DNA of 64,000 nucleotides. It comes from Woeseiaceae bacterium. GTDB taxonomy: Bacteria; Pseudomonadota; Gammaproteobacteria; Steroidobacterales; Woeseiaceae. The notes beneath the pieces are model-generated. The model made no database searches and was not told where the DNA came from. It worked only from the letters and a program-made list of their open reading frames with translations. The position numbers and the translations under genes are program-made. The stretch is taken from assembly GCA_021773035.1 (NCBI GenBank), contig JAJFKU010000061.1:62001-126000 (forward strand), written 5' to 3'. Shown here piece by piece: positions 14,934 to 64,000 of this stretch (its first letter is position 1; every line of letters starts with the position of its first letter).

Positions 14934-14946
14934 AAGTCTGTCTACA

Positions 14947-29357: not shown

Positions 29358-29807
29358 ATGAATATTAAGGATCTGGCCATCCTGCGATGGTTGCAGCAGG
29401 ACGGGTCGCTGTCGATGGACGACCTGGCCGACCGCGTCGCGCTTTCCAAGACAGCGGTGTGGCGACGCGTACGCAGGCTGGAGCAGGACAAAGTCATCAA
29501 AAAGCGCATCGCGATTATCGATCAGAAGGCAGTCGGGTTCGGCGTCACCGTATTCGCGCTCATTCACACGAATCAACACAGTGACAAGTGGTACAACAAG
29601 TTCTCGTCAGCCGTATTGAGTATCCCCGAAATTCTCGAGGTGCATCGCGCGAGCGGGGACGTCGACTACGTGCTGCGAATCGTTGCAAAAGACATGGACG
29701 ACTACGACCGCGTCTACCGGCAGCTTATCCGTAAATGCGACTTCTCGGATATCAGTTCGACGTTTGTCATGGAGTCGATCAAGCAAACCACAGAGTTACC
29801 CCTTTAG
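29358..29807 (+). CDS. Lrp/AsnC-family transcriptional regulator
   Basis: The N-terminal winged helix-turn-helix is clear (LRWLQQDGSLSMDDLADRVA, then LSKTAVWRRVRRLEQDKVIK) and is followed by the amino-acid-sensing RAM domain (VTVFALIHTNQHSDKWYNKF, HRASGDVDYVLRIVAKDMDDY). At 149 aa it has the normal Lrp length. Lrp/AsnC proteins sense amino acids. It is followed by a nitrilase-family hydrolase and D-serine dehydratase, so a role in controlling amino-acid or amide catabolism is likely. Confidence 0.94.
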   Translation: MNIKDLAILRWLQQDGSLSMDDLADRVALSKTAVWRRVRRLEQDKVIKKRIAIIDQKAVGFGVTVFALIHTNQHSDKWYNKFSSAVLSIPEILEVHRASGDVDYVLRIVAKDMDDYDRVYRQLIRKCDFSDISSTFVMESIKQTTELPL

Positions 29808-29865
29808 AGATTCATTATGAGTCTGCTGTCGTGTCTGGTCGGGTGTGAAAATTAAAAGTATAAAA

Positions 29866-29879
29866 GTATACAGGCATAC
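29866..29879 (-). promoter_or_regulatory. GTAT-N6-ATAC motif, copy 1 (before nitrilase/dsdA)
   Basis: On the minus strand this reads GTATGCCTGTATAC, with GTAT/ATAC arms six bases apart. It lies 57 bp before the nitrilase-superfamily gene. The same 14-bp pattern GTATGNNWGTATAC occurs at 33379-33392 and 49576-49589, each in an intergenic region of the same catabolic island. Confidence 0.55.
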
Positions 29880-29936
29880 CGTAAAATTACTGCCACATTG
29901 AAGCGGGCGAAAGAACGGCCTGGAGGGACATCAACA

Positions 29937-30743
29937 GTGAAAGTAGCGGGTCTGCAGCTGCGCCTGATCGACGCCACAACGCGACAGCAGAAAGAATCGA
30001 ATGTCGATCACATTCTCCAGCAGATCGACGCCTGTCCGCAATGCGACCTGATCGTTGTGCCGGAACTCGCGACGGTAGGTTATGGGCAGGATGTGTTCGA
30101 GAATCTGTCGTTCACTGCCGACCCCGTAGCAAGTTCGACGATCGACAGAATACGAAGTGCGGCGAAACGCAAACAGACTTTTCTCGCCTTCGGTTTTCCT
30201 GAGAAAAGCGAGGATGCCTTTTACAACTCCGTCGCGCTCATCGACGATAGAGGCGGGCTAATCGATGTCTACCGGAAAACGCACCTGCCGCTATTCGTAG
30301 ACACAATGGAAGGTGACTATTTTCAGTCCGGCGACCGCCTGGTCTCGTTCGACGTAAGGGGAGTCGAAGTCGGTGTCTCGATCTGCTACGACATTCGTTA
30401 CCCCGAACTCGCCAGGAACCTGGCCCTGGACAGGAATATAGACCTGCTGCTTCATCCCACGGCGTTTTCCGATGACGAGACCTTCGCCAGCTGGCATCCG
30501 TTTATTGTGACTCGCGCGATCGAGAACCAGATCTACGTATTGAGCGTAAATCGTGCGGGGGAAAGAAGCGGGAGATCGTTTTTCTGTCCACCGCTGATGG
30601 ACTGGCAGCGGCATTCATCGGCTCTCGGTGTCGATGAGGACTGCCTGGTCGCAACGATCGACGACGGTGTGCTTTCGACGGTGCGCCAAAAGTACCGCTA
30701 TCGTGAGGGCATTAACCAGAAAGCGCTGGAGAGCCTTAGGTGA
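29937..30743 (+). CDS. Carbon-nitrogen hydrolase (nitrilase superfamily)
   Basis: Amidase-type hydrolase of the nitrilase superfamily, with the catalytic Glu-Lys-Cys set: E43 in VVPELATVGY, K114 in YRKTHLP, and C150 in VSICYDIRYPE. The length (268 aa) fits omega-amidase/N-carbamoyl-type members that act on small amides. I start at GTG 29937, preceded by TGGAGGG; the frame continues to 29898 without a ribosome site. Its stop overlaps the dsdA start (GTGA), so the two are coupled. The substrate is unknown. Confidence 0.92.
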   Translation: MKVAGLQLRLIDATTRQQKESNVDHILQQIDACPQCDLIVVPELATVGYGQDVFENLSFTADPVASSTIDRIRSAAKRKQTFLAFGFPEKSEDAFYNSVALIDDRGGLIDVYRKTHLPLFVDTMEGDYFQSGDRLVSFDVRGVEVGVSICYDIRYPELARNLALDRNIDLLLHPTAFSDDETFASWHPFIVTRAIENQIYVLSVNRAGERSGRSFFCPPLMDWQRHSSALGVDEDCLVATIDDGVLSTVRQKYRYREGINQKALESLR

Positions 30744-32068
30744 CGGTCGCCCAGCTTGACTACAAGCAGGCCCTCGGCGGTGGCGTTCCGTTTCTTTGGC
30801 TGAACCCCAATCATCGGCGATGCCCCGGGGCCGTCGCTGAAGCGCGCTGGACAATGGCTGACATTGAGGCGGCCGAACGACGTTTTCAGGCGAGCGGAAA
30901 ACTGCTTGGCAGTCTGTTTTCAGATACCTGTCTGGATGGCGATGTGATCGAGTCGGTGCTGCAAGCGGTCGACTGGCCGGCCGGACAGGTGCAAGATACT
31001 GCATCGCCTCCCGGACATTTATGGATCAAATGCGATCACCAGCTGCCGATCGCCGGTTCGATCAAGGCACGTGGCGGGCTGCACGAGGTTATCGCGTTCG
31101 CGGAGGAGTTGGTCTCAACATACGGCTTCGAACAATCGCACCGCGATTTCTCCCACTGGAGCGATAGCGAAATCCAGTCGTTGTTCAACGAACATACGAT
31201 TGTCGTTGCGAGTACCGGTAATCTTGGGCTGAGCGTAGGTTTGATCGCCAAAGCACTTGGTTTTAAAGCGGTTGTGCATATGTCGGTCGAAGCAAAGTCG
31301 TGGAAGAAGGAAAAGCTGCGGGGTTGCCGTGCGATCATTGTCGAGCATGACGGTGATTATACGGAGGCTGTGAGAATAGGCCGGGAGGCAGCGGAACGGG
31401 ATCCGAAGTCCTACTTCGTCGATGACGAGAACTCACCACGACTGTTTCTCGGTTATGCCGTTGCGGCACTTCGCCTGCAGCGACAGTTAGCGCGTAATAA
31501 GGTGCGAGTGGATCGACAAAACCCGCTGTTTGTTTATGTTCCATGTGGCGTTGGCGGTGCACCGGGTGGGATATGCTTCGGCCTGCACCAGGTCTTCGGC
31601 GAGAACGTGCACGTGTTTTTCTCGGAGCCGACACAGTCGGCATGCATGCTGCTGGCTTTGTCCGAAGGAGAAGCGGGGCCTCGCGCGGTTTACGATATAG
31701 GGCTGGATAATACGACCGTTGCCGATGGCCTCGCGGTTTCAAGGGCGTCGGCGATGGTGGCCAACATCGTAAAGCCGCTGGTTAGTGGAATATACACCGT
31801 CTCGGACGAAATCCTGCTCCGGAACCTGTACCTGCTAAAGCACGAGTACGGGTTCTCGGTGGAGCCGTCTGCCGCCGCAGGCTTATCCGGCAGCGATTTC
31901 CTTTTGAACACGGATGCGGGAAGTCGGTACCTGAAAGAAAACACGCGGCCGGGCTCGTTGGCGCGCTCGAATCACGTCGTATGGACGACGGGTGGTATGC
32001 ATCTGCCAAGGGTTGAGTACGAGCATTACTGGAGTCTCGGCCGGGCCATCGACGATAACGCTATATAA
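30740..32068 (+). CDS. dsdA: D-serine ammonia-lyase (D-serine dehydratase)
   Basis: PLP enzyme that turns D-serine into pyruvate and ammonia, with some action on D-threonine (family knowledge). The PLP lysine is K109 in LPIAGSIKARGG, the signature of DsdA. Other landmarks are VASTGNLGLSVGLIAKALGF, the phosphate-binding loop PCGVGGAPGG, and a C-terminal VWTTGGMHLP. The length (442 aa) agrees with DsdA. It starts at a GTG that overlaps the nitrilase stop and ends over the 3' end of the convergent CoA-transferase gene by 8 bp. Confidence 0.93.
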   Translation: MTVAQLDYKQALGGGVPFLWLNPNHRRCPGAVAEARWTMADIEAAERRFQASGKLLGSLFSDTCLDGDVIESVLQAVDWPAGQVQDTASPPGHLWIKCDHQLPIAGSIKARGGLHEVIAFAEELVSTYGFEQSHRDFSHWSDSEIQSLFNEHTIVVASTGNLGLSVGLIAKALGFKAVVHMSVEAKSWKKEKLRGCRAIIVEHDGDYTEAVRIGREAAERDPKSYFVDDENSPRLFLGYAVAALRLQRQLARNKVRVDRQNPLFVYVPCGVGGAPGGICFGLHQVFGENVHVFFSEPTQSACMLLALSEGEAGPRAVYDIGLDNTTVADGLAVSRASAMVANIVKPLVSGIYTVSDEILLRNLYLLKHEYGFSVEPSAAAGLSGSDFLLNTDAGSRYLKENTRPGSLARSNHVVWTTGGMHLPRVEYEHYWSLGRAIDDNAI

Positions 32069-33272
32069 CCTCGTCCTGCCTCAGTTGCTCGATTTCATCG
32101 TCGTCAAGCCCCAGCAGATTCCCGAGTATTGCTGCGGTGCTGTCGCCAAGTTCCGGACCGGCGTGCCGGACTCTGCCGGGCGTCGCCGAAAGCTTCGGGA
32201 TGACATTTGGTACGACTAGGTTTTCGACCCGCGGGTCGTCGATAGCGACGAGATTCTCGCGTGCGGAAATATGTTCGTCATCGAAAATGTCCTCAATCGT
32301 ATTTATGAGTGCGCACGGTACGTCGGCAGCCCGGCAGATCTTCACCAGCTCATCGCTGTCGAATTGCAGAATCCAGTCTGAAACCACTTTGTCGATGATG
32401 CTACTGTCGGCAATGCGTTGTTGCGAATGTCCATAGGTCTTCGGATCCGCAAGCTGCGGTTGCTCCATCAGTACCGCGAGGCGTTCGAATATTTTGTCGC
32501 TGGAGCAGGCAAGCGCGACCCACTTATTATCTTTGCATTGAAAGTGGCCGTGCGGACAGGCGTTGTTGGTACCGACACCGAGTCGCCCGCGGATCGTCCC
32601 GTTGCTTGAGTAGCTTGGTGCCAGGTCGTCCAGTATGCGAAATATCGACTCGTACAACGCGAGATCGATGTATTGCCCGCCAACCTTGTCCCTGGCGAGC
32701 AGCGCGATCAAAAGCCCAATGGCCCCGTAAAGGCCGGAGATGTAATCGGCGAGCGAGGTCGAGCCGGGCGTAAGCGGCGGGCCACCGGGCATTCCTGTCA
32801 GGTGCGCCAAGCCACCGAACGCGTGGGCGATGCGGGCGAAACCGATTTGTTCGCTCAGTGGACCGGTTTGTCCAAACGCGGATACCCGCAGCATGACGAT
32901 ATCGGGATTGGCTTTCTTCAACTGTTCGAAACCCAGTCCCCATTTTTCCATGGTCCCGGGGCGAAAGCTCTCACAGACGATATCCGAGGTTTTAACGAGC
33001 GACATAAGAAGCTCGGCGCCTGCGGGTTTTCGGATATCGAGGGTCAGCGATCGCTTGTTTCTCGCTTCGCTGAGCCAGCACAGCGAATCGTCGGATTCCG
33101 TTGGCGTACCGAACTCGCGGAGTGGGTCGCCTGCTCCTGGCTTCTCGATCTTTATGACCTCGGCGCCGAATTCTCCCAGTATCGTCGCCGCATAGGGTGC
33201 GGCGATAAAGGTTCCCAGATCGAGGATTCGCAGGCCCTGCAGAGGCAAGCTAGAGTCGTTTATTTTATCCAT
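32061..33272 (-). CDS. CaiB/BaiF-type CoA-transferase
   Basis: Family III CoA-transferase, which moves CoA between carboxylic acids. The N-terminal motif LRILDLGTFIAAPYAATILG is followed by GAEVIKIEKPGAGDPLR; a nucleophilic Asp is expected in the family near SLADYISGLYGA. I start at ATG 33272; an upstream extension to 33347 is in frame but has no family similarity. The length is 403 aa. It is divergent from the aminotransferase operon and shares the 178-bp intergenic region that carries motif copy 2. It may activate or hand over an acid made in the island. Confidence 0.9.
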   Translation of the reverse strand: MDKINDSSLPLQGLRILDLGTFIAAPYAATILGEFGAEVIKIEKPGAGDPLREFGTPTESDDSLCWLSEARNKRSLTLDIRKPAGAELLMSLVKTSDIVCESFRPGTMEKWGLGFEQLKKANPDIVMLRVSAFGQTGPLSEQIGFARIAHAFGGLAHLTGMPGGPPLTPGSTSLADYISGLYGAIGLLIALLARDKVGGQYIDLALYESIFRILDDLAPSYSSNGTIRGRLGVGTNNACPHGHFQCKDNKWVALACSSDKIFERLAVLMEQPQLADPKTYGHSQQRIADSSIIDKVVSDWILQFDSDELVKICRAADVPCALINTIEDIFDDEHISARENLVAIDDPRVENLVVPNVIPKLSATPGRVRHAGPELGDSTAAILGNLLGLDDDEIEQLRQDEVI

Positions 33273-33378
33273 AAAAGTCAAAGGACTACATACGCTAAAG
33301 TTGTATATTGAAGGCACGGCCCAGTACCGTTGAGCCGCGCGTGACAAGTGCAGATATTGTTGCTGGGTTTTTCAATAC

Positions 33379-33392
33379 GTATGGTAGTATAC
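33379..33392 (+). promoter_or_regulatory. GTAT-N6-ATAC motif, copy 2 (divergent promoter region)
   Basis: GTATGGTAGTATAC lies between the CoA-transferase (-) and the aminotransferase operon (+), 58 bp before the aminotransferase start. It matches copies 1 and 3 at all positions of GTATGNNWGTATAC; upstream it also shares AC directly before GTATG with copy 3. Confidence 0.6.
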
Positions 33393-33450
33393 ACACATGT
33401 CATCAATTTTGCCGGCACGGCTTTAAGAAACGTAACGAGATGAAAAAGAA

Positions 33451-34833
33451 ATGAATAAAACGGATGTTGTCGCTCGGGACATCGAGCACGTACTTCACCC
33501 AACAACGGACCTTGCCCAACATCAGTCGCATGGCGCTTTAGTGATCGAAAAAGGGGATGGGATTTACGTATCGGACATTGACGGAAAAACGTATCTCGAA
33601 GGAATGGCGGGATTGTGGTGCGCCGGTTTTGGTTTCAGCGAAAGCGAACTCGTCGATGCCGCCATTGAGCAGCTGCGGAAGCTGCCCTTCTACCATAGCT
33701 TCGGCGGCAAAGCGGTATTGCCGACCATTGATCTCGCTGAACATCTTAAGCGAATCGTTCCGTTTGACGCCTCAAAAGTCTTTTTCACGAATTCAGGATC
33801 GGAAGCCAACGATACTCAGCTCAAGCTGATCTGGCACTACAACAACGCAATTGGAAAACCGCAGAAGAAAAAGATCATCTCGCGCTGGCGCGGGTATCAC
33901 GGTGTCACGATTGCGACGACCTGTCTGACCGGCCTGCCAGCGTATCGCAACGGCTTCGATCTTCCTGTGGCCGGCATACTCCACACGGAATGCCCGGATG
34001 TGTACCGCGGTATGGCGGTCGGTGAAACGGAAAGCGAGTACGCGAGTCGACTGGTCGAGAGCCTGGAAGACTTGATACAAAAGGAAGACCCGGAGACGAT
34101 CGCCGCATTCATAGCCGAGCCGGTAATGGCCGGCGGCGGGGTCTTGCCACCGCCGGAGACCTATTTCGAGAAGGTGCAAATCGTCCTTGAGAAGTACGAT
34201 ATCGTTTGTATCGCCGATGAAGTCGTCTGCGGATTCGGTCGTACCGGGAACATGTTCGGTTCCGAGACAGTTGGTATGAAGCCCGACCTGATGACCGTTG
34301 CAAAGCAACTGTCGTCGGCTTACATGCCCATCGCGGCCGTCATTATTCCGGGCTGGATGTACGAAACGCTGGTCGCCGAAAGCGAAAAGAGAAAGATATT
34401 CGGACATGGGATAACCTACGGCGGGCATCCGGTCCCGGCAGCCGTCGCACTGCGCGCGCTGCAGCTTTTCGAAGAGCGCGACATGCTGTCGCATATTCGT
34501 GCCGTTGCACCGCGTTTTCAGAGCCGCCTCCGGGCTTTTTCCGAGCATCCCCTGGTGGGCGATGCCAGGGGAGTCGGCTTGATTGGCGGTATCGAACTGG
34601 TCGCCGACAAATCGACAAAGGCTCCCTTCGATGCTTCTCTGGCGGTGGGTGGATACTGCGCCAGCGCGTGTCTGGATGAAGGCCTGATCACCAGGGCGAA
34701 CGGCGATGTTCTGCTCTTCTGTCCGCCACAGATAATCACTGACGATCAAATTGATGACATGTTTGACCGACTGGCGCGTGCTTTGGATACAACCGAGTAC
34801 TGGCTGTCGAGGCGGGGAGGGGCGACCAGGTGA
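33451..34833 (+). CDS. Class III (omega/beta-amino acid) aminotransferase
   Basis: PLP-dependent class III aminotransferase of 460 aa; such enzymes move terminal or beta amino groups to pyruvate or 2-oxoglutarate. PLP-lysine K285 is in MTVAKQLSSAYMP, the cofactor-ring Asp is D256 in IADEVVCGFGR, and phosphate contacts are in TNSGSEAND (113-121). The tail RANGDVLLFCPPQIITDDQID is typical of omega-aminotransferases. It opens a 10.5-kb operon and overlaps the aldehyde dehydrogenase by GTGA, so the aldehyde or oxo-acid it makes is likely oxidised by the next enzyme. The amine substrate cannot be read from sequence. Confidence 0.94.
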   Translation: MNKTDVVARDIEHVLHPTTDLAQHQSHGALVIEKGDGIYVSDIDGKTYLEGMAGLWCAGFGFSESELVDAAIEQLRKLPFYHSFGGKAVLPTIDLAEHLKRIVPFDASKVFFTNSGSEANDTQLKLIWHYNNAIGKPQKKKIISRWRGYHGVTIATTCLTGLPAYRNGFDLPVAGILHTECPDVYRGMAVGETESEYASRLVESLEDLIQKEDPETIAAFIAEPVMAGGGVLPPPETYFEKVQIVLEKYDIVCIADEVVCGFGRTGNMFGSETVGMKPDLMTVAKQLSSAYMPIAAVIIPGWMYETLVAESEKRKIFGHGITYGGHPVPAAVALRALQLFEERDMLSHIRAVAPRFQSRLRAFSEHPLVGDARGVGLIGGIELVADKSTKAPFDASLAVGGYCASACLDEGLITRANGDVLLFCPPQIITDDQIDDMFDRLARALDTTEYWLSRRGGATR

Positions 34834-36317
34834 CGACACGAGCGAGATACGGACAGTACATAAACGGCCGCTGGGAGAAGCCCTCGTCGGAGCAATGGAT
34901 TGATGTCGTCAATCCGTTTTCTCAGGAAAACTGGTCCCAGGTTGCGAGAGGAAGCAAGCAGGACGTCGATAGAGCAGTGGCCGCGGCCAGGGATGCATTT
35001 CTAGACGGGCAGTGGCCGGCGATGACGGCCACTCAGCGCGGTGCGCTGCTGCGAAGCCTCGGTGACCGCATAGCGGAACATGCCGAGAGACTGGCCGAAG
35101 TGGAGTCGCGCGATAACGGCAAACTCATTGCGGAGATGCGGGCACAGCTGCAATACGCTCCCGAGTGGTTTTACTATTTCGGCGGCCTTGCCGACAAAAT
35201 CGAGGGTATGGTCTTTCCGACTGACAAAGCGGATATGCTGTCGTACGCGAAATACGAACCCTACGGCGTGGTTGCTGCGATCACGGCGTGGAATTCGCCG
35301 CTGTTGCTGGCCGCTTACAAGCTGGCCCCGGCACTCGCGGCCGGTAATACCGTCGTTCTCAAGCCGTCGGAGCATGCGTCCGTATCCACCATGGAACTGG
35401 CCGACCTGTTTGCCGATGCCGGGGTTCCGCCCGGCGTTATCAACGTTGTAAGCGGCTACGGTCATGAGATCGGCGATGCACTAACGGGTCATCCCGACGT
35501 AGCCAAGATAACGTTTACCGGCAGCGAAGCTACCGGGAAACGAATTGCCGGCATCGCGGCCAGGGATATCAAGCCGTTGACGCTGGAACTCGGCGGTAAG
35601 TCGGCAAACATCGTGTTTGACGACGCTGATCTTGATCTCGCGGCTGTTGGCGCAGTTACCGGGTTTCTGTCCGCGGGTGGGCAAACCTGCGTGGCCGGAT
35701 CGCGGCTGCTTGTCCAGAATTCGATCTACGACGAGTTCGTCGAAAAAGTCGTTTCGATCGCGAAGGCGGCGCGTCTGGGCGACCCTTTTTCGGCGGATAC
35801 TCATATCGGACCCATCGCCAACGAAGCTCATTTTCAGAAAATCATCGGCTACTTCGATATTGCGAAAGCCGATGGAGCTGACTGCGTGCTGGGTGGGCGA
35901 GTTCATCAGGATTCTGAGATAAAGGATGGCTGGTTCATCGAGCCAACCGTCTATACGAACGTAGACAACAGCATGCGTATCGCTCAGGAGGAAATTTTCG
36001 GACCGGTCCTGGCTGTCTTGAGTTTCGAGACGGAAGAGGAGGCCATTCGGATCGCAAACGACTCGCGCTATGGGCTTGCTGCCGGTGTGTGGAGCAAGGA
36101 TTCTGCACGAGCTCTTCGTGTCGCCGACAGGATTCAGGCCGGTACCGTCTGGATAAACACCTACCGGGTTGTGAGTTTCATGACGCCATTTGGTGGCTAC
36201 AAAGCGAGTGGCAGCGGTCGGGAAAACGGCGCGGTCGCGATAAAGGAATACTTGCAACTCAAGAGTTACTGGATTGGAACGTCTGGCGATGTTTCCAATC
36301 CCTTCGTGATTCGATAA
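34830..36317 (+). CDS. NAD(P)-dependent aldehyde dehydrogenase
   Basis: Aldehyde dehydrogenase of 495 aa that oxidises an aldehyde to an acid or acyl product. Catalytic residues are C287 in GGQTCVAGSR, E253 in LELGGKSAN and N154 in ITAWNSP; the cofactor loop is FTGSEATGK. It sits between aminotransferase and CitE-like lyase with overlaps on both sides (GTGA, TAATG), strong signs of coupled translation. Its likely substrate is the semialdehyde made by the aminotransferase (inference). Confidence 0.95.
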   Translation: MTTRARYGQYINGRWEKPSSEQWIDVVNPFSQENWSQVARGSKQDVDRAVAAARDAFLDGQWPAMTATQRGALLRSLGDRIAEHAERLAEVESRDNGKLIAEMRAQLQYAPEWFYYFGGLADKIEGMVFPTDKADMLSYAKYEPYGVVAAITAWNSPLLLAAYKLAPALAAGNTVVLKPSEHASVSTMELADLFADAGVPPGVINVVSGYGHEIGDALTGHPDVAKITFTGSEATGKRIAGIAARDIKPLTLELGGKSANIVFDDADLDLAAVGAVTGFLSAGGQTCVAGSRLLVQNSIYDEFVEKVVSIAKAARLGDPFSADTHIGPIANEAHFQKIIGYFDIAKADGADCVLGGRVHQDSEIKDGWFIEPTVYTNVDNSMRIAQEEIFGPVLAVLSFETEEEAIRIANDSRYGLAAGVWSKDSARALRVADRIQAGTVWINTYRVVSFMTPFGGYKASGSGRENGAVAIKEYLQLKSYWIGTSGDVSNPFVIR

Positions 36318-37300: not shown

Positions 37301-37324
37301 GTTTGAAGGCCGAGGAAACTATCG

Positions 37325-40182: not shown

Positions 40183-40185
40183 CGG

Positions 40186-43996: not shown

Positions 43997-44016
43997 TGCG
44001 CATCGCATATGCCGGC

Positions 44017-49575: not shown

Positions 49576-49589
49576 GTATGTCAGTATAC
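49576..49589 (+). promoter_or_regulatory. GTAT-N6-ATAC motif, copy 3 (divergent promoter region)
   Basis: GTATGTCAGTATAC lies between the TonB receptor (-) and the amidase operon (+), 59 bp before the amidase start. The distance to the downstream start is nearly the same as for copy 1 (57) and copy 2 (58), a sign that the site has a fixed role in these promoters. Confidence 0.6.
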
Positions 49590-49648
49590 TTACTTACTAC
49601 CTATCTGTCTATTGCGGGTGAGGACCGAGATAAGCGCATGAGCGAGCT

Positions 49649-52287: not shown

Positions 52288-52289
52288 TC

Positions 52290-55638: not shown

Positions 55639-55662
55639 CCGGGCTGACCAGAGGAGAGGACA

Positions 55663-56445: not shown

Positions 56446-56470
56446 CCTCGGCAGCGGACCAGGAACGCGT

Positions 56471-57832
56471 ATGAGCGGGCCAACAATGATCGACAACACA
56501 GTCACGGGCAGCTACTGCATGCCGACCTTTTTTGTCGCCGCTGTTACGACACCCGCTTTGCTGATATTGCCGACGCTGTACGCGCACTATACGACCATTA
56601 CATTGGCGCAGATTGGTTTGATATTGATGGTCACCCGGGCTCTGGATGCCGTCACCGACCCACTCATCGGCTTCCTGTCTGATCGTACCCGATCCCGCTG
56701 GGGGCCCCGCAAGCCCTGGGTGGCGGCCGGTGCAGTTGTCGTCACACCCTCGGTCTGGTTCCTGTTCAATCCCGCGCCGGAGGCGGGGGTTGGTTATTTT
56801 CTGACCTGGGCTTTTCTATTCACGCTCGGTGCGACAATGGTCACCATTCCGACCAGCGCCTGGGGTGTGGATCTGACGCTGGACCCGAAGGAACGGACGC
56901 GGCTGTTCACGATTCGGGGAATGCTGATGCACGTCGGCGGCATCATGTACGCGGTCTTTCCGCTTGCGCTATTCTCACGTTATGAGTCAACTGCACTGTC
57001 GATGAAGGTAATGAGCGACCTCGCGTATTTCGTCGTGATTGCGCTGCCGATAAGCTATGTCGTCATGCTCTACGTTGTGCCGCAGGGAAGCCAGATCGCG
57101 GCCAGGACGCCGTCGCTGGTCTCCGTCTGGGGTACGCTAAAAAATAACCGGCTGTTGTGGCGCTATTTCGTGGTCACGGTACTGACCGGAATCGGGCTTG
57201 GTATGTACCTCGGAGTGATGTACCTGTTTTTCGCCGATCACATGAAGATGGGTCAGGCGTTTCCGGTCATTGCGATCACGAGCGGGGTCAGCATTTTCTG
57301 TATCATGCCGATCTGGATGAAACTCATTCTCAGGTTCGGCAAGCCGCGCGTCTGGTCCTGCGCCCTGATCGCGATGGCGCCCACTTCTCCTATCATCTGG
57401 TTTGTGGAGCCCGGCATGGGGTCCATCGTGGCCATCCTGGTATTGACCGTTGTAGGAGCGGCGTTGCTGGCTGGACATTTTGCGGTATCGCCCGTGCTGC
57501 TCGGCGATATTATCGACTACGATAAACTTCGTTTCGGCGAAAACAAGGCCGGCAACATCTTCTCGCTGTCGTTGATTGTCAACAAAGTCGCCTACGCCGG
57601 AGGAGCCGGACTCGGCCTCTTTCTGGTCGGCCAGTTCGGCTACCAGCCGGGAGCCGATAACGGCCCGCTGGCCGTTTTTGGCCTGGCTTTCTGCTTTTCC
57701 ATTCTACCGGCGCTATTACTGACGGCGGGCGGGGTCTCGTTGCTGCGCTACCCGGTTTCAATGCAGCGTCAGGATACGATCAAGCGCCGGCTTGACCAGC
57801 GGGCAGCGCGTGCTGCCGGAAGAACAGTGTAG
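56471..57832 (+). CDS. GPH-family (MelB-like) cation symporter, copy 2
   Basis: Twelve-helix-type MFS/GPH transporter (453 aa) with the signature FLSDRTRSRWGPRKPWVAAG and second-half mark GDIIDYDKLRFGENKAGN. It is a divergent paralog of the 45708-47075 transporter. I start at ATG 56471, preceded by AGGA; a longer frame upstream overlaps the SDR gene and lacks transporter features. Embedded in the amidase/beta-oxidation operon, it likely imports the same substrate or a fragment of it. Confidence 0.92.
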   Translation: MSGPTMIDNTVTGSYCMPTFFVAAVTTPALLILPTLYAHYTTITLAQIGLILMVTRALDAVTDPLIGFLSDRTRSRWGPRKPWVAAGAVVVTPSVWFLFNPAPEAGVGYFLTWAFLFTLGATMVTIPTSAWGVDLTLDPKERTRLFTIRGMLMHVGGIMYAVFPLALFSRYESTALSMKVMSDLAYFVVIALPISYVVMLYVVPQGSQIAARTPSLVSVWGTLKNNRLLWRYFVVTVLTGIGLGMYLGVMYLFFADHMKMGQAFPVIAITSGVSIFCIMPIWMKLILRFGKPRVWSCALIAMAPTSPIIWFVEPGMGSIVAILVLTVVGAALLAGHFAVSPVLLGDIIDYDKLRFGENKAGNIFSLSLIVNKVAYAGGAGLGLFLVGQFGYQPGADNGPLAVFGLAFCFSILPALLLTAGGVSLLRYPVSMQRQDTIKRRLDQRAARAAGRTV

Positions 57833-57885
57833 GAATCGAAGCAACATGAAGAGAAAAAAATGGGATTGGAGACGGGACGGAGACT

Positions 57886-58791
57886 ATGAGCAGTAACGAA
57901 AACGGCAAAGTAATGGCGGCCAGCCTCACGCCTTTGAACGCAGACTTTTCGATAGATGATGCAAGTTTTGCAGAACATGTGCAGAAGCTCGTCGCGGACG
58001 GTTGTGACAGTGTCGTTCTGTTCGGTACCACGGGGGAGGGGAACTCGTTTTCCGTGGCGGAGCGAAGCGCCGCGCTCGATAGTCTGCTGGCATCGGGTGT
58101 GCGGCCTGAACAGCTGATGGTCGGCACGGGCTGCTGTTCGCTGCCGGACACCGTGCAGCTGACGCGCCACGCGATTTCCAGCGGAGTTCGCAATGTCCTG
58201 GTGTTACCGCCGTTCTACTACAAAGGCGTTAGCGACGATGGGCTGCACGAATACTTCGCCAGACTGATAGAGAATACGCGGGAGGCGGATCTGCGTGTCT
58301 ACCTGTATCACTTTCCGAAAATGTCCATTGTGTCCTTTTCGCACGAACTGATCGCAAGCTTATCGTCCGCTTTTCCACAACAGATCGTTGGGATGAAGGA
58401 CTCCACCGGTGACCGCGAACATACGATGCTGCTTAAAGACTCATTTCCGTCGCTGGAGATATATGCCGGTACCGAAATGTTCCTGCTCGACTACCTGAAT
58501 GCCGGCGGGGCGGGATGTATATCGGCTACCGCCAATGTTACGGCGAAACTGGCGGCGTCGGTTCGTGACGATGTCGGCAAGCCGTCTGCGATCTTGAAAC
58601 AAGACCTGCTGAGCAAAGTACGGGGCGTGCTGCAGCAGTATCCGGCAACGGGCACACTGAAACGTTTGCTCGCGGTCGAAACCGGGCACGTTGGCTGGCA
58701 GTACACCCGTGCTCCACTGAAGTGTCTGCCGCCAGAGGATGCCGTTGTGGTCGCGGCAAGCTTGAGAGACCTCGGGTTTCGCTTCGCGTAG
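57886..58791 (+). CDS. DapA/DHDPS-family aldolase or hydro-lyase
   Basis: Class I TIM-barrel enzyme of the dihydrodipicolinate synthase/N-acetylneuraminate lyase family (301 aa). The Schiff-base lysine is K171 in GMKDSTGD, the proton-relay Tyr is Y141 in YLYHFPKMS, and the carboxylate loop is GTTGEGNSF. Its place in a catabolic operon away from lysine genes argues for an aldolase role on a 2-oxo acid rather than DapA. The ATG has a GGAG site. A two-codon gap or less separates it from the next SDR. Confidence 0.9.
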   Translation: MSSNENGKVMAASLTPLNADFSIDDASFAEHVQKLVADGCDSVVLFGTTGEGNSFSVAERSAALDSLLASGVRPEQLMVGTGCCSLPDTVQLTRHAISSGVRNVLVLPPFYYKGVSDDGLHEYFARLIENTREADLRVYLYHFPKMSIVSFSHELIASLSSAFPQQIVGMKDSTGDREHTMLLKDSFPSLEIYAGTEMFLLDYLNAGGAGCISATANVTAKLAASVRDDVGKPSAILKQDLLSKVRGVLQQYPATGTLKRLLAVETGHVGWQYTRAPLKCLPPEDAVVVAASLRDLGFRFA

Positions 58792-58800
58792 GTGATGTCT

Positions 58801-59700
58801 ATGACTATTCGATTTGATGATCAGGTCGCCGTTGTAACCGGCGGTGGACGCGGACTTGGGCGCAGTTACGCGCTGGCGCTGGCCGAGCGCGGCGCGAAAG
58901 TGGTGGTCGTCGACCTGCCACGGGGCGACGGTGCGGATAGTGACCGGGATCCGGCACAATCTGTCGTCGACGAGATTGTTGCCGCCGGTGGCGAGGCGAT
59001 GTCCAGTCATGCCGACGTTACTGCAATGGAGCAGGTGGCGGCGATGACTGATGCGGCGGTCGATAAGTGGGGCAGGGTAGACGTTCTTGTCAACAACGCC
59101 GGGATTCTTCGTGACAAATCCTTCGCCAAGATGACGCCGGAAGAATTCCGGCTGGTCGTTGATGTACACCTGTTCGGCACGTTTAACTGCTGCCACGCTG
59201 CCTGGCCACGAATGCGGGAGCAACGCTACGGTCGAATCGTAAACGCGATTTCCGCATCCGGTCTGTATGGGAATTTCGGGCAGTCGAATTACAGCGCGGC
59301 GAAAATGGGCATCGTGGGCCTGATGAATACTCTACATCACGAGGGGCAGAAGTATGATATTCGGGTCAATTGCCTGGCGCCGGTAGCCGCTACGAGGATG
59401 TCAGAAGGCCTGCTTGGCGAACGGGAAGCGGAACTGATGGATCCTGCGCTGGTGGCACCGGGACTGGTCTATCTGGCGAGCGAGAATGCGCCGCGCAAGA
59501 CGATTTTGAATGCCGGCTGCGGTCGTTTCAGCAGAACCTTCGTTTACGAGTCTTCCGGCATTGAATTGATGCCGCCGCAGGACACCGCCGAGGACATCGA
59601 AGAGCGATGGGCGGAGATTTCTCTGGCCGACGATCTGTGTGCTCCGGACAGCGCCTACGATCACGTTGGCCGAATCGTTGCACTGCGAGCGGGGTCCTAG
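58801..59700 (+). CDS. SDR dehydrogenase like the N-terminal part of peroxisomal MFE-2 (HSD17B4)
   Basis: NAD(P)-dependent SDR (299 aa) with TGGGRGLGRSYALALAERGA, NNAG (VDVLVNNAGILRDKSF), Ser in NAISASGLYG and YSAAK in NYSAAKMGIVGL. The late insertion ending in APRKTILNAGCGRFSRTFVY is typical of MFE-2-like (R)-3-hydroxyacyl-CoA dehydrogenases. Three in-frame starts (GTG 58792, ATG 58795, ATG 58801) are possible; I took 58801 because GGTG lies at the right distance. It would oxidise the product of the MaoC hydratase. Confidence 0.92.
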   Translation: MTIRFDDQVAVVTGGGRGLGRSYALALAERGAKVVVVDLPRGDGADSDRDPAQSVVDEIVAAGGEAMSSHADVTAMEQVAAMTDAAVDKWGRVDVLVNNAGILRDKSFAKMTPEEFRLVVDVHLFGTFNCCHAAWPRMREQRYGRIVNAISASGLYGNFGQSNYSAAKMGIVGLMNTLHHEGQKYDIRVNCLAPVAATRMSEGLLGEREAELMDPALVAPGLVYLASENAPRKTILNAGCGRFSRTFVYESSGIELMPPQDTAEDIEERWAEISLADDLCAPDSAYDHVGRIVALRAGS

Positions 59701-59703
59701 CCG

Positions 59704-60870
59704 ATGGGGCCGCTACAGGGAATGAAGATTGTAGAAATCGGTGGCATCGGTCCGGCACCATTTTGCGGAATGATGCTTGCGGATATGGGTGCGGAGGTAA
59801 CCCTGCTGCATCGTTTGACGAACGACGCCGGTGCGGGGACGCTAGGGAGATACGAAATCGTCAACCGCGGCAAGCAGTCAATCATGCTTGACCTCAAGAA
59901 TCCGACGGCGGTCGAAGTGGCGCTGAAACTCATAGCGCGCGCAGATGCGATAATCGAGGGATTTCGACCGGGAGTGATGGAACGATTGGGACTGGGGCCG
60001 GCCGTCTGCCTGGAAAGAAATCCGAGACTTGTCTTCGGGCGTATGACGGGATGGGGGCAGTCGGGCCCACTTGCGAATACCGCGGGGCATGACATCAATT
60101 ATATTGCATTAAGCGGGGCGCTCTACTATTCGGGGCATGGCTCGGAAACTCCGTTCGCACCACCGACACTGGTGGGCGATGTAGGCGGTGGTGCAATGAT
60201 GCTGGCCCTGGGTATTGTCGCAGGGCTGCTAAGGGCAAGGCAGAGCGGCAAAGGGCAGGTTATCGACGCCGCGGTTACCGACGGTTCGGCACTGCTTACG
60301 GCTTTACTGTTTTCATTTCATCAGGCCGGCGCATGGAGTGATAAGCGATCCGACAATTCGATCGACAGTGCTTCGCCATGGTATGACACCTACGAATGCG
60401 CAGATGGAAAATTTGTGACGATCGGATCGGTCGAACCGAAATTTTACGCACTACTGCTGGAGGTCTGCGGGTTAAGCGACGATAGTGATTTTGCAGACCA
60501 GTACAGTAAGGACAGCTGGCCGCTGGCGAAACAAAAGATGATTGCGATGTTCAAGTCCAAAACAAGAAAACAATGGTGCGAGCTGATGGAGGGTACGGAC
60601 ATTTGTTTTGCACCGGTGCTGGATTTCGGGGAAGCCGTTTTGCATCCGCACAATCGCGAGCGGAACACCTTTGTCGAAGCTGGCGGCGTAATGCAACCTG
60701 CACCGGCGCCGCGATTTAGTGGAACACCTTCACGCCCGGCATCTTCTCCACCTCGACCTGGCGCGGATACCAGGCCAATTCTGCAGTCCCTGGGATACGG
60801 GGGCGCCGAGATCGAGCTGATGCTGTCTGACGGGGTGGCGGGATGCACGTCGGACGTGGAGTCACCGTGA
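59704..60870 (+). CDS. Alpha-methylacyl-CoA racemase-like CoA-transferase-fold protein
   Basis: CaiB/BaiF-fold protein (388 aa) most like alpha-methylacyl-CoA racemase: IVEIGGIGPAPFCGMMLADMGA at the N-terminus and GTDICFAPVLDFGEAVLHPH, then APAPRFSGTP, at the C-terminus, where other CoA-transferases differ. The racemase inverts the 2-methyl centre of acyl-CoAs so that the S form can be oxidised (family knowledge). Its presence beside SCP-x thiolase, MFE-2-like SDR and MaoC points to a methyl-branched substrate. Starts 3 bp after the SDR and overlaps MaoC by GTGA. Confidence 0.9.
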   Translation: MGPLQGMKIVEIGGIGPAPFCGMMLADMGAEVTLLHRLTNDAGAGTLGRYEIVNRGKQSIMLDLKNPTAVEVALKLIARADAIIEGFRPGVMERLGLGPAVCLERNPRLVFGRMTGWGQSGPLANTAGHDINYIALSGALYYSGHGSETPFAPPTLVGDVGGGAMMLALGIVAGLLRARQSGKGQVIDAAVTDGSALLTALLFSFHQAGAWSDKRSDNSIDSASPWYDTYECADGKFVTIGSVEPKFYALLLEVCGLSDDSDFADQYSKDSWPLAKQKMIAMFKSKTRKQWCELMEGTDICFAPVLDFGEAVLHPHNRERNTFVEAGGVMQPAPAPRFSGTPSRPASSPPRPGADTRPILQSLGYGGAEIELMLSDGVAGCTSDVESP

Positions 60871-61331
60871 CATTGATACTTACCCGGGATACGTTGAACG
60901 AGCATATCGGAGACGAGGTCGGCGTATCTCCCTGGACGGATATTTCCCAGGATCGGGTGAACGCGTTTGCCGAAGTCACGATCGATCCCCAGTTCATCCA
61001 TATAGACCCGGAGCGGGCTGCGATGACCCCGTTTGGCGGGACCGTTGCGCACGGGTTTCTGGTGCTCTCTATGTTGTCGTATTTTTCGGGAAACGGGATG
61101 GGCGTTTCCATGGAAGGTGCCGAGATGGGCATTAATTACGGTATCGACAACCTCAGATTCATCAGCCCGGTGCCCGTTGGGAAGCGAATACGCGGCCGGT
61201 CCCGGCTGCTGGCGGCCGAGGAGACGAAGCCCGGTCAGTTTCGTTTCAGACAGCAGGTCACGGTCGAAATCGAAAATCAGGCCAAGGCTGCACTGGTCGG
61301 AGAGTGGTTGACGATGGCGATTGCTCCCTGA
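60867..61331 (+). CDS. MaoC-like (R)-specific enoyl-CoA hydratase
   Basis: Hot-dog-fold hydratase (154 aa) with the catalytic motif FAEVTIDPQFIHIDP (Asp and His) and AHGFLVLSMLS, matching MaoC-type 2-enoyl-CoA hydratase 2. I start at GTG 60867, which overlaps the racemase stop as GTGA and gives the normal N-terminus (LTRDTLNEHIGDEVG); ATG 60843 is an upstream alternative. It hydrates the product of the acyl-CoA dehydrogenase. It is the last gene of the operon and a hairpin follows. Confidence 0.92.
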   Translation: MTLILTRDTLNEHIGDEVGVSPWTDISQDRVNAFAEVTIDPQFIHIDPERAAMTPFGGTVAHGFLVLSMLSYFSGNGMGVSMEGAEMGINYGIDNLRFISPVPVGKRIRGRSRLLAAEETKPGQFRFRQQVTVEIENQAKAALVGEWLTMAIAP

Positions 61332-61362
61332 TGGGCGAGCAAAATGCCGCCCATCGGTTTAT
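61330..61362 (+). terminator. Terminator-like hairpin after MaoC gene
   Basis: GATGGGCG and CGCCCATC form an 8-bp stem, with an inner GC/GC pair possible across a bulged A, followed by GGTTTATC. It starts at the MaoC stop codon and fits the end of the amidase/beta-oxidation operon. The T-run is short. Confidence 0.5.
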
Positions 61363-61408
61363 CATCGCGAAGTCGTTCTCATTCTCACATGGGTCAGGGT
61401 GAACCAGT

Positions 61409-62140
61409 TTGCGTAAGGTACCGTTTTATCGTCAGGTCGCGGATACGCTGCAGGACAGAATAGTCAATGGCGTCTACGCCGTTGGCAGCTATTTGCCGAC
61501 GTCCAACGAGATGGAGAAGTCGTTCCAGGTCAGCAACATTACGATCCGCAAGGCGCTAAACATGCTGAAGGATGACGGCTGGATCGAGACGAAGCTCGGC
61601 GTGGGAATGGTCGTCGTTCGCGGCGCGAACGAAGCCGTTGTCGATATTCGTCATTCAGGTCGATTTGACGAATGGCTCGAATGGGCGTCCGGTAAATCAC
61701 AGAACGTCAAGCAGCGTGTACTCGGGATCGATAGTGAAATGGGTCCTCCCAAAATTCGCCAATTGCTGCAGATCGCGGATGACAGTCCGATCTGGCGGAT
61801 GCGGCGTCTGCGATCGATATCCAGGGAACCGATTTCCTACCACGTGACCTATGGCGGAGCGGAGTTCCACGACCTGGTAAAGAAAGAGGATTTCCAGGGT
61901 TCCGGAAGTTTCATCGAATTCCTGCAGCGCAATTATCCAAGGAAGATTACCCGCATCGACCAGCATGTCGAAGCGGACATCGCAAACCTCGATCTGGTAA
62001 AACTGCTGAAGATCGACTTCGGTGCACCGATCTTTTTCATGGAGCACCTGTATCTCGACGAGAGGGAAAAAGTCGTCGCGGTAACCCGCCTGTTCATGCG
62101 CGCTGATCGCTATCGCTACAGCACATCGATAAAAGTATAG
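61409..62140 (+). CDS. GntR-family regulator, HutC/UTRA type
   Basis: Transcription factor of 243 aa with an N-terminal winged helix-turn-helix (VADTLQDRIVNGVYAVGSYL, then NITIRKALNMLKDDGWIETK) and a C-terminal UTRA ligand domain (IWRMRRLRSISREPISYHVT, HLYLDEREKVVAVTRLFMRA). The start is TTG 61409; no in-frame ATG is nearby. UTRA regulators sense small molecules such as sugars, amino acids or acyl groups. It stands between the beta-oxidation operon and a TonB receptor and is the best local candidate for controlling either. Confidence 0.92.
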   Translation: MRKVPFYRQVADTLQDRIVNGVYAVGSYLPTSNEMEKSFQVSNITIRKALNMLKDDGWIETKLGVGMVVVRGANEAVVDIRHSGRFDEWLEWASGKSQNVKQRVLGIDSEMGPPKIRQLLQIADDSPIWRMRRLRSISREPISYHVTYGGAEFHDLVKKEDFQGSGSFIEFLQRNYPRKITRIDQHVEADIANLDLVKLLKIDFGAPIFFMEHLYLDEREKVVAVTRLFMRADRYRYSTSIKV

Positions 62141-62182
62141 TCTTTGCTTAGATGGCTTGCTCCGCTCGGGAAGGGCGGGCTA

Positions 62183-62217
62183 GTACAATGCGCAGCCCAA
62201 AGGGTACAATGCGCAGC
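62183..62217. repeat. Tandem 14-bp direct repeat upstream of TonB receptor
   Basis: GTACAATGCGCAGC occurs twice, at 62183-62196 and 62204-62217, exactly 21 bp apart (two helical turns), 53 bp before the receptor start. This spacing fits paired regulator binding on one DNA face. The repeat includes the palindrome TGCGCA. The GntR/UTRA protein just upstream is one candidate binder. Confidence 0.5.
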
Positions 62218-62269
62218 AAGAAACTACTTTGAAACACTATCTTAACGAACTTGTAACTCAGGGGGATTC

Positions 62270-64000
62270 ATGAGTAAGCAAACCAGAACCGCGTGGGCGG
62301 TTGCTGCGACATCGGCATTTCTGTGCCTGTCGCAGACCGCGACCGCGCAGAGCGACGGCGCCTTGATCGAAGAAATCACCGTGACGGCGGCAAAGCGTGA
62401 GCAGAGCATCTACGAGGTACCGATTGCCGTGAGTGCCTTCGATGGTGCGAAACTCGCGGAACAGGGCATCGTCGGTATCTACGACATCGGAAAGTTTGTA
62501 CCGAATCTGAACATCACGGAGTTCTCGGCCGGGCATACGTCTTCCGTCAATCCGTTCATTCGCGGCATCGGTCTGCAGGATCACCTGATCACCACCGATC
62601 CGGGTGTATCCGTGTACGTGGACGGCGTCTACCTGGGCCGCCAGGTTGGGCAGAACTGGAGTATTGCGAATATCGAGCGCATCGAAGTGTTGCGCGGACC
62701 TCAGGGTACCCTGTACGGTCGAAACTCGATCGGCGGCGCGATCAATATCATCACGAAAACACCGGGTTCGGATCCGGGTGCGAAGGTCGCCTTCGAGGTT
62801 GGCAGTCGCGATCGTCTCAACGGCGATTTCTACGGTGACGCTCAGCTGAACGACACGATGGCAGTGTCCTTCACCGGTGGATTCAAGAACCGTGGTGGCC
62901 TGGGCGACTTTCTGAACCTGCCGAACTCAGGTTTGCAGGTTGGCGAGAATCAGGAGGTGTTCGGTCGATTGGCGTTTCGTTTTGAGTTGAGCGATGACGC
63001 CAGCGTGACGATTGCCGCTGATGCGAATGACGGCGAGGGCGGTTTGCGTCCGTATACGACACTGATCGACGAGTTGCCAAACGGTGCGGTGTTCGGTGCC
63101 GGCTATCGCAATTCCGACGTTTCTGCCGACCCCTATGACAACAACACGGGCCAGGCCAGCCAGGCCTTGGTAACGAACGAAGCATCCGGTGTTGCGGTAA
63201 CCCTCGACTGGGACGTGTCGGACACGATTAACAGCAAGTTCATCGCGAGCATGCGGCAGTCCGAGTACAAGGCAGGTCTTGACGACGATAGCTTCGTCGA
63301 CGATTTCCTGTCGTTCCCTGAATTCGGAGACGCGGATCAGACTTCCATCGAGTTCCAGGTCAGCGGCGCCTACGATGGCTGGGACTTTGTTTCGGGTCTG
63401 TACTATTTCACCGAGGACGGCAGCAACAACCAGGCTCCCACAGTGTTCCTGACCTTCCCTGGCACGTTCTTTCTGCAGCAGGACGTAAGCAGCGTTGCCG
63501 TGTTCGGTAATTTCGGCTTCGATATCAACGATCAGTTCCGTGTTTCGGCGGGCCTTCGTTACACGGAAGACGAGAAAGACGCGGCCACGAATGTCGGCAA
63601 CGGTTTGTTTACAGCCACGCGCGACTTCGATGAGTTCAGCTGGGATATCTCTGCGAACTACACCTTCGATAACGGGATGAATGTTTACGGAGCGATTCAA
63701 AACGGCTACCAGTCCGGGCAGTTTCCGGCCCGACCGTTTTGCCTGTTTGGTGACCCAAACTGTTTTGTTGCGAGCGATAACATAACTGCGACCAACTACG
63801 AGGTGGGTATCAAGGGACAACCTTTTGACGGCTTCCAGATGAGCGCTGCGGTGTTCCTGACAGACTACAGCGATCTTCCCTATCAGGTCAGCACCACAGC
63901 GGGTGGCGGCTTCAACACCGTGAACCTGATCGTGGATCAGACCTCAACCGGCTTCGAATGGGAAAACACGCTCTACATTGGCGAGAATTTCCTGTTCCAG
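62270..64000 (+). CDS. TonB-dependent outer-membrane receptor, 3' end beyond the window
   Basis: The frame opens at ATG 62270, after AGGGGGA, and stays open to the window end (577 codons). A signal peptide ends near TATAQ (about residue 26), followed by a TonB-box-like EEITVTAAKRE, a plug (RIEVLRGPQGTLYGRNSIGG) and the first barrel strands. The IPIAVSAF and NIITKTPGS segments are typical of receptors from this group of bacteria. It is the third receptor associated with the island counting from 47 kb (fourth in the window counting all types is not implied: receptors are at 18.6, 47.1 and 62.3 kb). Confidence 0.93.
   Translation, partial: MSKQTRTAWAVAATSAFLCLSQTATAQSDGALIEEITVTAAKREQSIYEVPIAVSAFDGAKLAEQGIVGIYDIGKFVPNLNITEFSAGHTSSVNPFIRGIGLQDHLITTDPGVSVYVDGVYLGRQVGQNWSIANIERIEVLRGPQGTLYGRNSIGGAINIITKTPGSDPGAKVAFEVGSRDRLNGDFYGDAQLNDTMAVSFTGGFKNRGGLGDFLNLPNSGLQVGENQEVFGRLAFRFELSDDASVTIAADANDGEGGLRPYTTLIDELPNGAVFGAGYRNSDVSADPYDNNTGQASQALVTNEASGVAVTLDWDVSDTINSKFIASMRQSEYKAGLDDDSFVDDFLSFPEFGDADQTSIEFQVSGAYDGWDFVSGLYYFTEDGSNNQAPTVFLTFPGTFFLQQDVSSVAVFGNFGFDINDQFRVSAGLRYTEDEKDAATNVGNGLFTATRDFDEFSWDISANYTFDNGMNVYGAIQNGYQSGQFPARPFCLFGDPNCFVASDNITATNYEVGIKGQPFDGFQMSAAVFLTDYSDLPYQVSTTAGGGFNTVNLIVDQTSTGFEWENTLYIGENFLFQ

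Follow-up and report, generated by a model that had tools for sequence, protein, structure and literature searches.

The closest described counterpart of the locus reported here is the mlr cluster of microcystin-degrading sphingomonads, which encodes a serine hydrolase of family S12 (MlrB), a metallopeptidase of family M81 (MlrC) and a transporter of the major facilitator superfamily (MFS; MlrD). MlrB is assigned to the periplasm and MlrC to the cytoplasm (PMC12474180). The locus itself lies in a 64,000-nucleotide stretch of DNA from a Woeseiaceae bacterium (GenBank assembly GCA_021773035.1, contig JAJFKU010000061.1, positions 62,001–126,000; hereafter, the window), where a 34.6-kb region (29358–64000) contains 27 genes matching Pfam families, among them two M81 metallopeptidases (M81a and M81b) and three S12 hydrolases (BlaA, BlaB and BlaC). 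An earlier note on this DNA had proposed a catabolic island for an amide-linked acyl-peptide, comparable to linear microcystin with its beta-amino-acid residue Adda. Pfam and NCBIfam profile searches, run on the same set of region proteins, found every family named in that note in open frames scoring over the Pfam cut-offs; the idea of an amide-linked molecule with a catabolized acyl part is supported, but the link to Adda or microcystin is not. Eight genes had gone unnamed: an AsnC/Lrp regulator (29358), the D-serine ammonia-lyase DsdA (30740), a minus-strand CaiB (32061), an HpcH-family lyase (~36317), an alpha/beta hydrolase (41652), an acyl-CoA dehydrogenase (53860), a DHDPS-family protein (57886) and a GntR-UTRA regulator (61409). 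The missed DsdA and the D-amino-acid neighborhoods of M81 genes elsewhere point to peptides with D-residues instead, and, as read from its genes, the island probably lets the bacterium use peptides that contain D-amino acids.

S12, M81 and an MFS-type transporter are common to this locus and the mlr cluster, and the likeness to MlrB, MlrC and a transporter that the earlier note had drawn is supported; within this order, genes for S12 hydrolases lie clustered with those like M81a (see below). By eye, a signal-like N-terminus is present in BlaC and lacking in M81a, M81b, BlaA and BlaB, which for BlaC and the M81 pair would fit the mlr layout. Compared with the mlr cluster, the window has two M81 and three S12 genes, a GPH transporter in place of the PTR2 type and no Abi/CPBP gene that was seen, and it adds a TonB receptor, a D-serine ammonia-lyase and a beta-oxidation module. 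M81a (38689–40182, + strand; PF07364, 9.4e-70; PF07171, 1.2e-50; MlrC structure 7ylq, 9.2e-88) and M81b (40186–41661, +; PF07364, 1.1e-80; PF07171, 2e-49) carry both M81 Pfam domains over the cut-offs and keep the MlrC zinc ligands E39, D167, H169 and H191 plus H133 and D332; these residues are named in a source in which the fourth ligand appears as H191 and also as H196 (PMC9982164). Scores against the microcystinase MlrC model (NF041767, cut-off 999 bits) reach 312.9 and 281.6 bits; of nine aligned MlrC substrate contacts N41, D341 and S392 are kept and W59, F67, F96, Q468, S485 and R492 are not, and retention of the proposed base E70 varies with the aligner (HMMER places E there in M81a, MAFFT places G/Y). 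A tree of 85 M81 proteins, limited to frames of 430–700 aa with split or fused frames dropped, contains one 33-row clade that unites MlrC, the window pair, a member of the second M81 pair of this genome, several proteins from the order and one from Burkholderia arboris; within it MlrC groups weakly (91/55) with proteins of genomes G107 and G122, and is not the nearest relative of the window proteins. M81a and M81b were therefore rejected as MlrC orthologues, being far under the cut-off and without MlrC as nearest relative in the tree. An Abi/CPBP domain of the mlrA type was found in none of the 40 window proteins scanned, the rest of the genome not having been searched, and the aminotransferase that the note had fitted to Adda falls in a general subfamily (PRK06105, 677 vs. 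517 bits). On present evidence the locus thus resembles mlrBCD in parts and is not a microcystin locus: the MlrC scores are low, six of nine contacts are not kept, MlrC is not the nearest relative in the tree and no CPBP/Abi domain was seen among the 40 window proteins.

All three S12 hydrolases, BlaA (37325–38692, +; PF00144, 5.7e-59), BlaB (42818–43996, +; 3e-55) and BlaC (44017–45711, −; 1.2e-60; with a DUF3471 tail), have intact S-x-x-K, Y-x-N and H-x-G motifs. The nearest solved structures are, for BlaA, IS11 and 6ksu followed by a DD-carboxypeptidase and an alkaline D-peptidase (best 60 of 70 structure matches); for BlaB, alkaline D-peptidase and DD-carboxypeptidases, with a D-amino acid amidase as well (26 of 26 matches); and for BlaC they include 2qmi, ClbP, Flp and a D-aminopeptidase (44 of 44). 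The top NCBIfam model for BlaC is the D-aminopeptidase DAP (PRK13128; 138 bits, under the cut-off of 443). An S12 gene lies within 10 kb of M81 in 9 of the 16 other order genomes with M81a-like genes. In 17 order genomes, 17 of 118 S12 genes lie that close to M81, where 0.94 would be expected (11 against 0.64, in six genera, when this genome is left out); this test omitted G691 and G887, both already seen with S12 beside M81. Across the phylum, 59 of the 76 M81 loci listed outside this genome were fetched, no genus giving more than three except for two that gave five; S12 occurs at 2 of these 59, against 1 of 20 random loci and none of 14 loci of aldehyde dehydrogenase (ALDH) genes. Pairing with S12 was accordingly rejected as a general trait of M81; with 9 of 16 order genomes against 2 of 59 phylum loci, it is a feature of the M81a-like loci of this order, plus B. 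arboris and two phylum genomes.

Genes of D-amino-acid metabolism are found beside M81 in a wider range of genomes, the families met being DadA, DsdA, the M55 D-aminopeptidase family, DgcN-DgcA, the D-threonine aldolase (D-TA) family, the D-cysteine-desulfhydrase family, a dipeptide epimerase and a cysteate/amino-acid racemase. In the literature searched, no paper tying M81 to D-amino acids was found. In the window, DsdA (30740–32068, +; NF002823, 506.8 bits vs. a cut-off of 246; TIGR02035, 448.2 vs. 368.25, both over) lies 6.6 kb from M81a. Position tests over 80 genomes with known M81 genes (this one included), with a distance of 10 kb and chance derived from genome size, gave 10 of 83 DadA-family genes (D-amino-acid dehydrogenase; NF001933, E ≤ 1e-80) near M81, in five genera, with 0.56 expected; 3 of 8 DsdA genes with 0.06 expected (2 and 0.05 without this genome); 3 of 24 M55 genes, in two genera, with 0.19 expected; and 4 of 55 genes for DgcN (D-glutamate catabolism) with 0.42 expected (3 of 54, 0.41 expected, P 0.009, without the locus that suggested it). 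DgcN is also found near S12 (8 of 18, 1.02 expected); for the S12 and DgcN tests the weakest S12 matches listed (E above ~3e-28, all of them off M81 contigs) and unlisted ones were not entered. Three of the four M81 loci of this genome have a D-amino-acid neighbor: DsdA in the window (C58), two D-cysteine-desulfhydrase-family genes in C16 and DgcN-DgcA in C51, with none in C59; the C51 protein belongs to the other M81 clade, the one without MlrC.

When a single set of hidden Markov models (HMMs) was applied to all fetched loci, positives numbered 10 among the 13 order genomes, 7 among the 59 phylum loci and 7 among the 12 plasmid loci, with none among 46 controls, which comprised 20 random, 14 ALDH, six ALDH-orthologue and six plasmid amidase/ligase loci (L150 and L153 overlap). 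The seeds of the set (the window, L034, L052, L059, L066, L069, L070, L087, L109, L117, L123, L172, L176, L177, L178, L179 and L182) match by construction; positives that are not seeds number five in the order (G187, G285, G141, G366, G245), three in the phylum (L080, L106, L113) and one among the plasmids (L173). When the tree is split, the clade that holds MlrC and both window proteins has 21 D-gene-positive rows of 32, and the other clade has 4 of 52; for the phylum-sampled rows only, the counts are 5 of 8 and 3 of 50 (Fisher 6e-4). L080, with two M81 genes, is counted in both clades and the window twice in its own, and D-TA matches under 300 bits (the window gene at 4914 and that of L122, which neighbors a beta-hydroxyaspartate dehydratase) are not counted.

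Several observations weigh against D-residue peptides as the substrate. The D-amino-acid families were picked after they had been seen beside M81, which makes the locus counts partly circular, and the genome-wide tests span five families and related genomes that are not independent. Of the phylum-sampled M81 loci, 52 of 59 have none of these D-amino-acid genes and 57 of 59 have no S12 gene; models for M55, the D-cysteine family and the racemase found nothing at these 59 loci, as was true of a class IV aminotransferase model and a deaminase fragment. Half of the ten DadA-family genes near M81 score under the curated cut-off and all four DgcN genes slightly under theirs (446.8–478 vs. 480); the D-TA proteins of L080 and L106 best match a hydroxyaspartate-aldolase model, far under its cut-off; and weaker DadA-like scores (~80–90 bits) occur in the control loci L150, L153 and L156. 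The solved S12 relatives of BlaA–C also include ordinary beta-lactamases and esterases. The strand block of DsdA holds AsnC and the nitrilase, not M81, and enzymes of the DsdA type may accept D-threonine. The aminotransferase, ALDH and lyase genes have no obvious role with D-peptides; six loci of ALDH orthologues (52–58%; G896, G787, G888, G837, G785), fetched for the aminotransferase-ALDH-lyase context, contain the lyase in none and an aminotransferase in one (L155).

The region is not one operon: its genes fall in five strand blocks (+, 29358–32068; −, 33272–32061; +, 33451–43996; −, 49472–44017; +, 49649–62140, followed by the second TonB receptor), and it can be divided into module A (29.4–49.5 kb; 29358–49472) and module B (49.6–61.3 kb; 49649–61331). 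GC content is similar inside the region (0.55–0.59) and elsewhere in the window (0.52–0.58), and composition therefore does not mark an island. Besides DsdA, the first block contains the AsnC/Lrp-family regulator (29358–29807, +; PF01037, 1.2e-19; HTH_24, 1.6e-15) and a carbon-nitrogen hydrolase of the nitrilase fold (29898–30743, +; PF00795, 1.3e-35; all 11 NCBIfam models matched below cut-off). The second is a single family III CoA-transferase of the CaiB/BaiF type (32061–33272, −; PF02515, 8.1e-109; all seven NCBIfam models matched below cut-off). The eight genes of the third run from a class III (omega-)aminotransferase (33451–34833, +; PF00202, 4.6e-86; PRK06105, 676.9 vs. 517; nearest solved 5ghf, 3.5e-158), an ALDH (34830–36317, +; PF00171, 1.1e-177) and an HpcH/HpaI-family lyase (36317–37300, +; PF03328, 2e-39) through BlaA, M81a, M81b and the alpha/beta hydrolase (41652–42830, +; PF12697, 5.5e-11) to BlaB. 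The start of the lyase was set at 36317 (the longest frame, from 36089, begins inside the preceding gene); all four NCBIfam models matched are below cut-off, despite a malyl-CoA/beta-methylmalyl-CoA lyase as its nearest solved structure (5ugr, 3.2e-97). In minus-strand order, the fourth block comprises the TonB-dependent receptor TBDR1 (47124–49472, −; PF00593, PF07715), the GPH/MFS_2 transporter GPH1 (45708–47075, −; PF13347, 1.1e-74) and BlaC.

Most simply read, module A is a D-peptide locus: the solved relatives of its S12 hydrolases include D-specific peptidases, and it adds M81 hydrolases and an enzyme for D-serine removal. The analysis establishes which genes are present, that their motifs are intact and that M81 clusters with S12 and with D-amino-acid genes, whereas the cell locations, substrates, order of steps and joint action of the two modules on one molecule are inferred. 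TBDR1 would import the peptide across the outer membrane, BlaC would act as a periplasmic S12 peptidase that trims it at D-residues, and GPH1 would carry the fragments inward, where cytosolic M81a/M81b and BlaA/BlaB may open the remaining unusual bonds. D-serine ammonia-lyase would convert the freed D-serine to pyruvate and ammonia; the aminotransferase, ALDH, CoA-transferase and malyl-CoA-lyase-like enzyme could feed an omega-amino or C4–C5 residue into central metabolism, and module B would free an acyl chain from its amide and pass it to branched-chain beta-oxidation. We put about even weight on this combined account, in which module A is a TonB-S12-GPH-M81 scavenging locus for D-residue peptides and module B burns the branched acyl chain.

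Module B reads as a set that hydrolyzes an amide and takes a branched chain through CoA activation and beta-oxidation, in ten genes from an amidase-signature amidase (49649–51106, +; PF01425, 1.7e-85) to a MaoC-type hydratase (60843–61331, +; PF01575, 2.1e-22). Between these lie an SCP-x-type thiolase (51046–52287, +; PRK08256, 658.9 vs. 436), an AMP-dependent acyl-CoA ligase (52290–53867, +; PF00501, 4.6e-63; PRK12406, 676.2, under the cut-off of 701), an acyl-CoA dehydrogenase with a C-terminal Acyl-CoA_dh_C domain (53860–55638, +; PF12806, 5.2e-29; PF00441, 6.6e-19; longest frame from 53806), the 2,4-dienoyl-CoA-reductase-like short-chain dehydrogenase/reductase (SDR) SDR1 (55663–56445, +; PRK07576, 398 vs. 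321), the GPH/MFS_2 transporter GPH2 (56471–57832, +; PF13347, 8.6e-58; longest frame from 56183), a DHDPS-family aldolase/lyase (57886–58791, +; PF00701, 1.9e-39; 3b4u, 2.3e-49), a second SDR that may serve as a 3-hydroxyacyl-CoA dehydrogenase (58792–59700, +; PF00106, 1.2e-51) and a CaiB/AMACR-type enzyme (59704–60870, +; PF02515, 1.4e-83). The GntR-UTRA regulator (61409–62140, +; PF07702, 4.5e-24; PF00392, 1.1e-16) and the TonB-dependent receptor TBDR2 (62270–64000, +; PF00593, PF07715), which runs off the window end, follow, giving module B its own regulator, transporter and receptor.

A lipopeptide containing D-serine would need both modules, and their action on one molecule is unproven. 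It is only a little short of an even chance that they are unrelated neighbors, module A taking peptides or amides and module B being an independent cluster for degradation of an acyl amide or an isoprenoid/sterol-side-chain-like compound that adjoins it by chance. The regulators (AsnC at 29358, GntR-UTRA at 61409) and GPH transporters are separate, which favors this account and counts against a joint substrate; the receptors too are separate, and an opposite-strand block lies between. The M81 cluster in C16 shows nothing related to the amidase, SCP-x thiolase or MaoC of module B, and of 392 order genomes this one alone matches the amidase at E ≤ 1e-110. Chance adjacency is opposed by the main direct link between the modules, a 57% relative of SDR1 within the M81 locus of G047 (L070), and by the presence of MaoC close to M81 in G107 and G290, two of the 13 order genomes fetched, and its absence from the 34 random and ALDH controls, although the 59 phylum M81 loci lack it too. 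Other relatives of MaoC, acyl-CoA synthetase (ACS) and SDR proteins near M81 are at 26–43%, and those of ACS and SDR are equally common in control loci. The earlier note had made co-occurrence of peptidase and beta-oxidation genes in related genomes a test of its reading; a few relatives (G047, G107, G290, G122, G691) have genes of both types around M81, never as the whole set.

That the D-peptides are stem peptides of the cell wall (peptidoglycan), not secreted lipopeptides, is rather unlikely, though several M81 neighborhoods fit: Qingshengfaniella has GH20, M15, ROK and MurR/RpiR genes around M81, Phyllobacterium has M55 and a D,D-dipeptide permease near it and Mesorhizobium a dipeptide epimerase, and DgcN-DgcA adjoins M81 in C51 of this genome. 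Against stem peptides, no module A gene matched a glycosidase or muramyl-amidase domain in the Pfam scan, and to our knowledge stem peptides do not usually contain D-serine.

Omega-amino-acid amides akin to nylon oligomers or caprolactam, for which a NylA-like amidase, S12, an omega-aminotransferase and ALDH would precede beta-oxidation, are improbable substrates. The solved structure nearest to the amidase is indeed 6-aminohexanoate-cyclic-dimer hydrolase (3a2p, 3e-74), the aminotransferase is close to solved omega-transaminases, and the caprolactam pathway employs an aminotransferase of such omega type (PMC6061476). No 6-aminohexanoate-dimer hydrolase (NylB-type) is present among the S12 structure matches (all 26 for BlaB, all 44 for BlaC and the best 60 of 70 for BlaA), however; the amidase scores under the cut-offs of at least 25 of the 26 NCBIfam models, its four plasmid relatives (~38%) stand in varied contexts, and M81 and DsdA would be left unexplained. 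Linear microcystin or another Adda-like beta-amino-acyl peptide is most improbable of all: an M81-S12-transporter trio as in mlrBCD, the kept zinc ligands and the branched beta-oxidation genes would suit it, but the MlrC scores, the six contacts not kept, the tree position and the lack of an Abi/CPBP domain among the 40 window proteins scanned do not.

M81 genes are present in 16 of 107 family genomes (E ≤ 1e-20), 17 of 396 order genomes (E ≤ 1e-70, the level of all order-level M81 rows, with M81a as the query), 6 of 232 class genomes and 51 of 299 phylum genomes sampled, each count including this genome; a scan of named genomes gave as single relative an actinomycetotal metagenome-assembled genome (39%). 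The whole gene set, for which the earlier note had proposed a search, was met in no other genome, and part of it recurs on a Burkholderia megaplasmid. On that B. arboris replicon (NZ_CP101525, L171), an alpha/beta hydrolase (36%), S12 (32%), M81 (45.5%) and a TonB receptor (27%) adjoin, with one M81 instead of two; at E ≤ 1e-8 no other window protein has a match in the surrounding 12 kb. The second M81 pair of this genome (C16, L033/L034) shares with the window a 58% relative of TBDR1 (L033:17120-19306) adjoining the pair, two M81 genes (44–46% to M81a), three S12 genes and a GPH transporter; it differs in having two D-cysteine-desulfhydrase-family genes and, by eye, two 3-hydroxyacyl-CoA-dehydrogenase-like genes, and in lacking relatives of the window DsdA, aminotransferase and module B amidase. 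The plasmid loci of Phaeobacter and Paracoccus have M81 followed directly by a D-TA-family gene, with a transporter, and are unlike the window in their tripartite ATP-independent periplasmic (TRAP) transporter, RidA, sugar kinase and MurR/RpiR regulator; no S12 was found in them. Among the phylum M81 loci, RidA occurs at 6 of 59 (0 of 20 random and 1 of 14 ALDH loci) and MurR/RpiR at 3 of 59 (0 of 34).

Further observations concern M81 neighborhoods. Of 19 locus groups compared, 8 have TRAP transporter genes adjoining M81 (L053, L054, L056, L058, L060, L066, L071, L123). The D-cysteine-desulfhydrase-family genes beside the second M81 pair form a near-adjacent pair (L034:5090-8539), with D-cysteate sulfo-lyase CuyA as best model (371 bits, cut-off 450), and in G290 a CuyB-type racemase, over its cut-off, adjoins M81. 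At L036:14902-19600 in C51, the other-clade M81 gene is followed by homologues of DgcN (under cut-off) and DgcA (430 vs. 400). A beta-hydroxyaspartate dehydratase, BhcB, scores over its cut-off (580.6 vs. 550) near M81 in G803 (L122:5792-6868). In the window itself, a protein of the D-TA/D-serine-dehydratase family (4914–6050, +; PF01168 and PF14031) lies ~33 kb left of M81a and reaches 125 bits against the BhcC model (cut-off 690), and an S15 peptidase (9863–11845, −) lies 27 kb from M81, with relatives near M81 in G141, G183, G245 and L117. A gene block for beta-galactosidase, GalT and GalK occupies 11721–17384 (−). The right flank (L007:502-10881) contains, in frames read by eye, TetR, a sulfotransferase, a TonB receptor, an FAD oxidase-like protein, an amidohydrolase and an antiporter-like protein.

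Cell walls and natural products give rise to D-amino-acid peptides, which make up a sizeable and poorly assigned nitrogen pool in sea and soil. We tentatively propose, with somewhat more doubt than belief, that the MlrC-containing M81 clade is a general family of hydrolases acting on amide bonds that flank D- (or other non-protein) amino acids, with its genes set in catabolic loci for D-amino acids throughout Pseudomonadota; that a locus of this kind was the source from which microcystin degradation was recruited; and that this bacterium, with four M81 loci of which three lie beside a different D-amino-acid pathway, may be a D-peptide specialist. Microcystin breakdown, the sole function of an M81 peptidase that we found in the literature, would be a niche activity for this little-studied family, given its presence in 51 of the 299 phylum genomes sampled; the association with D-amino-acid genes offers a concrete hypothesis for the ordinary job of M81 and for the origin of mlrBC.

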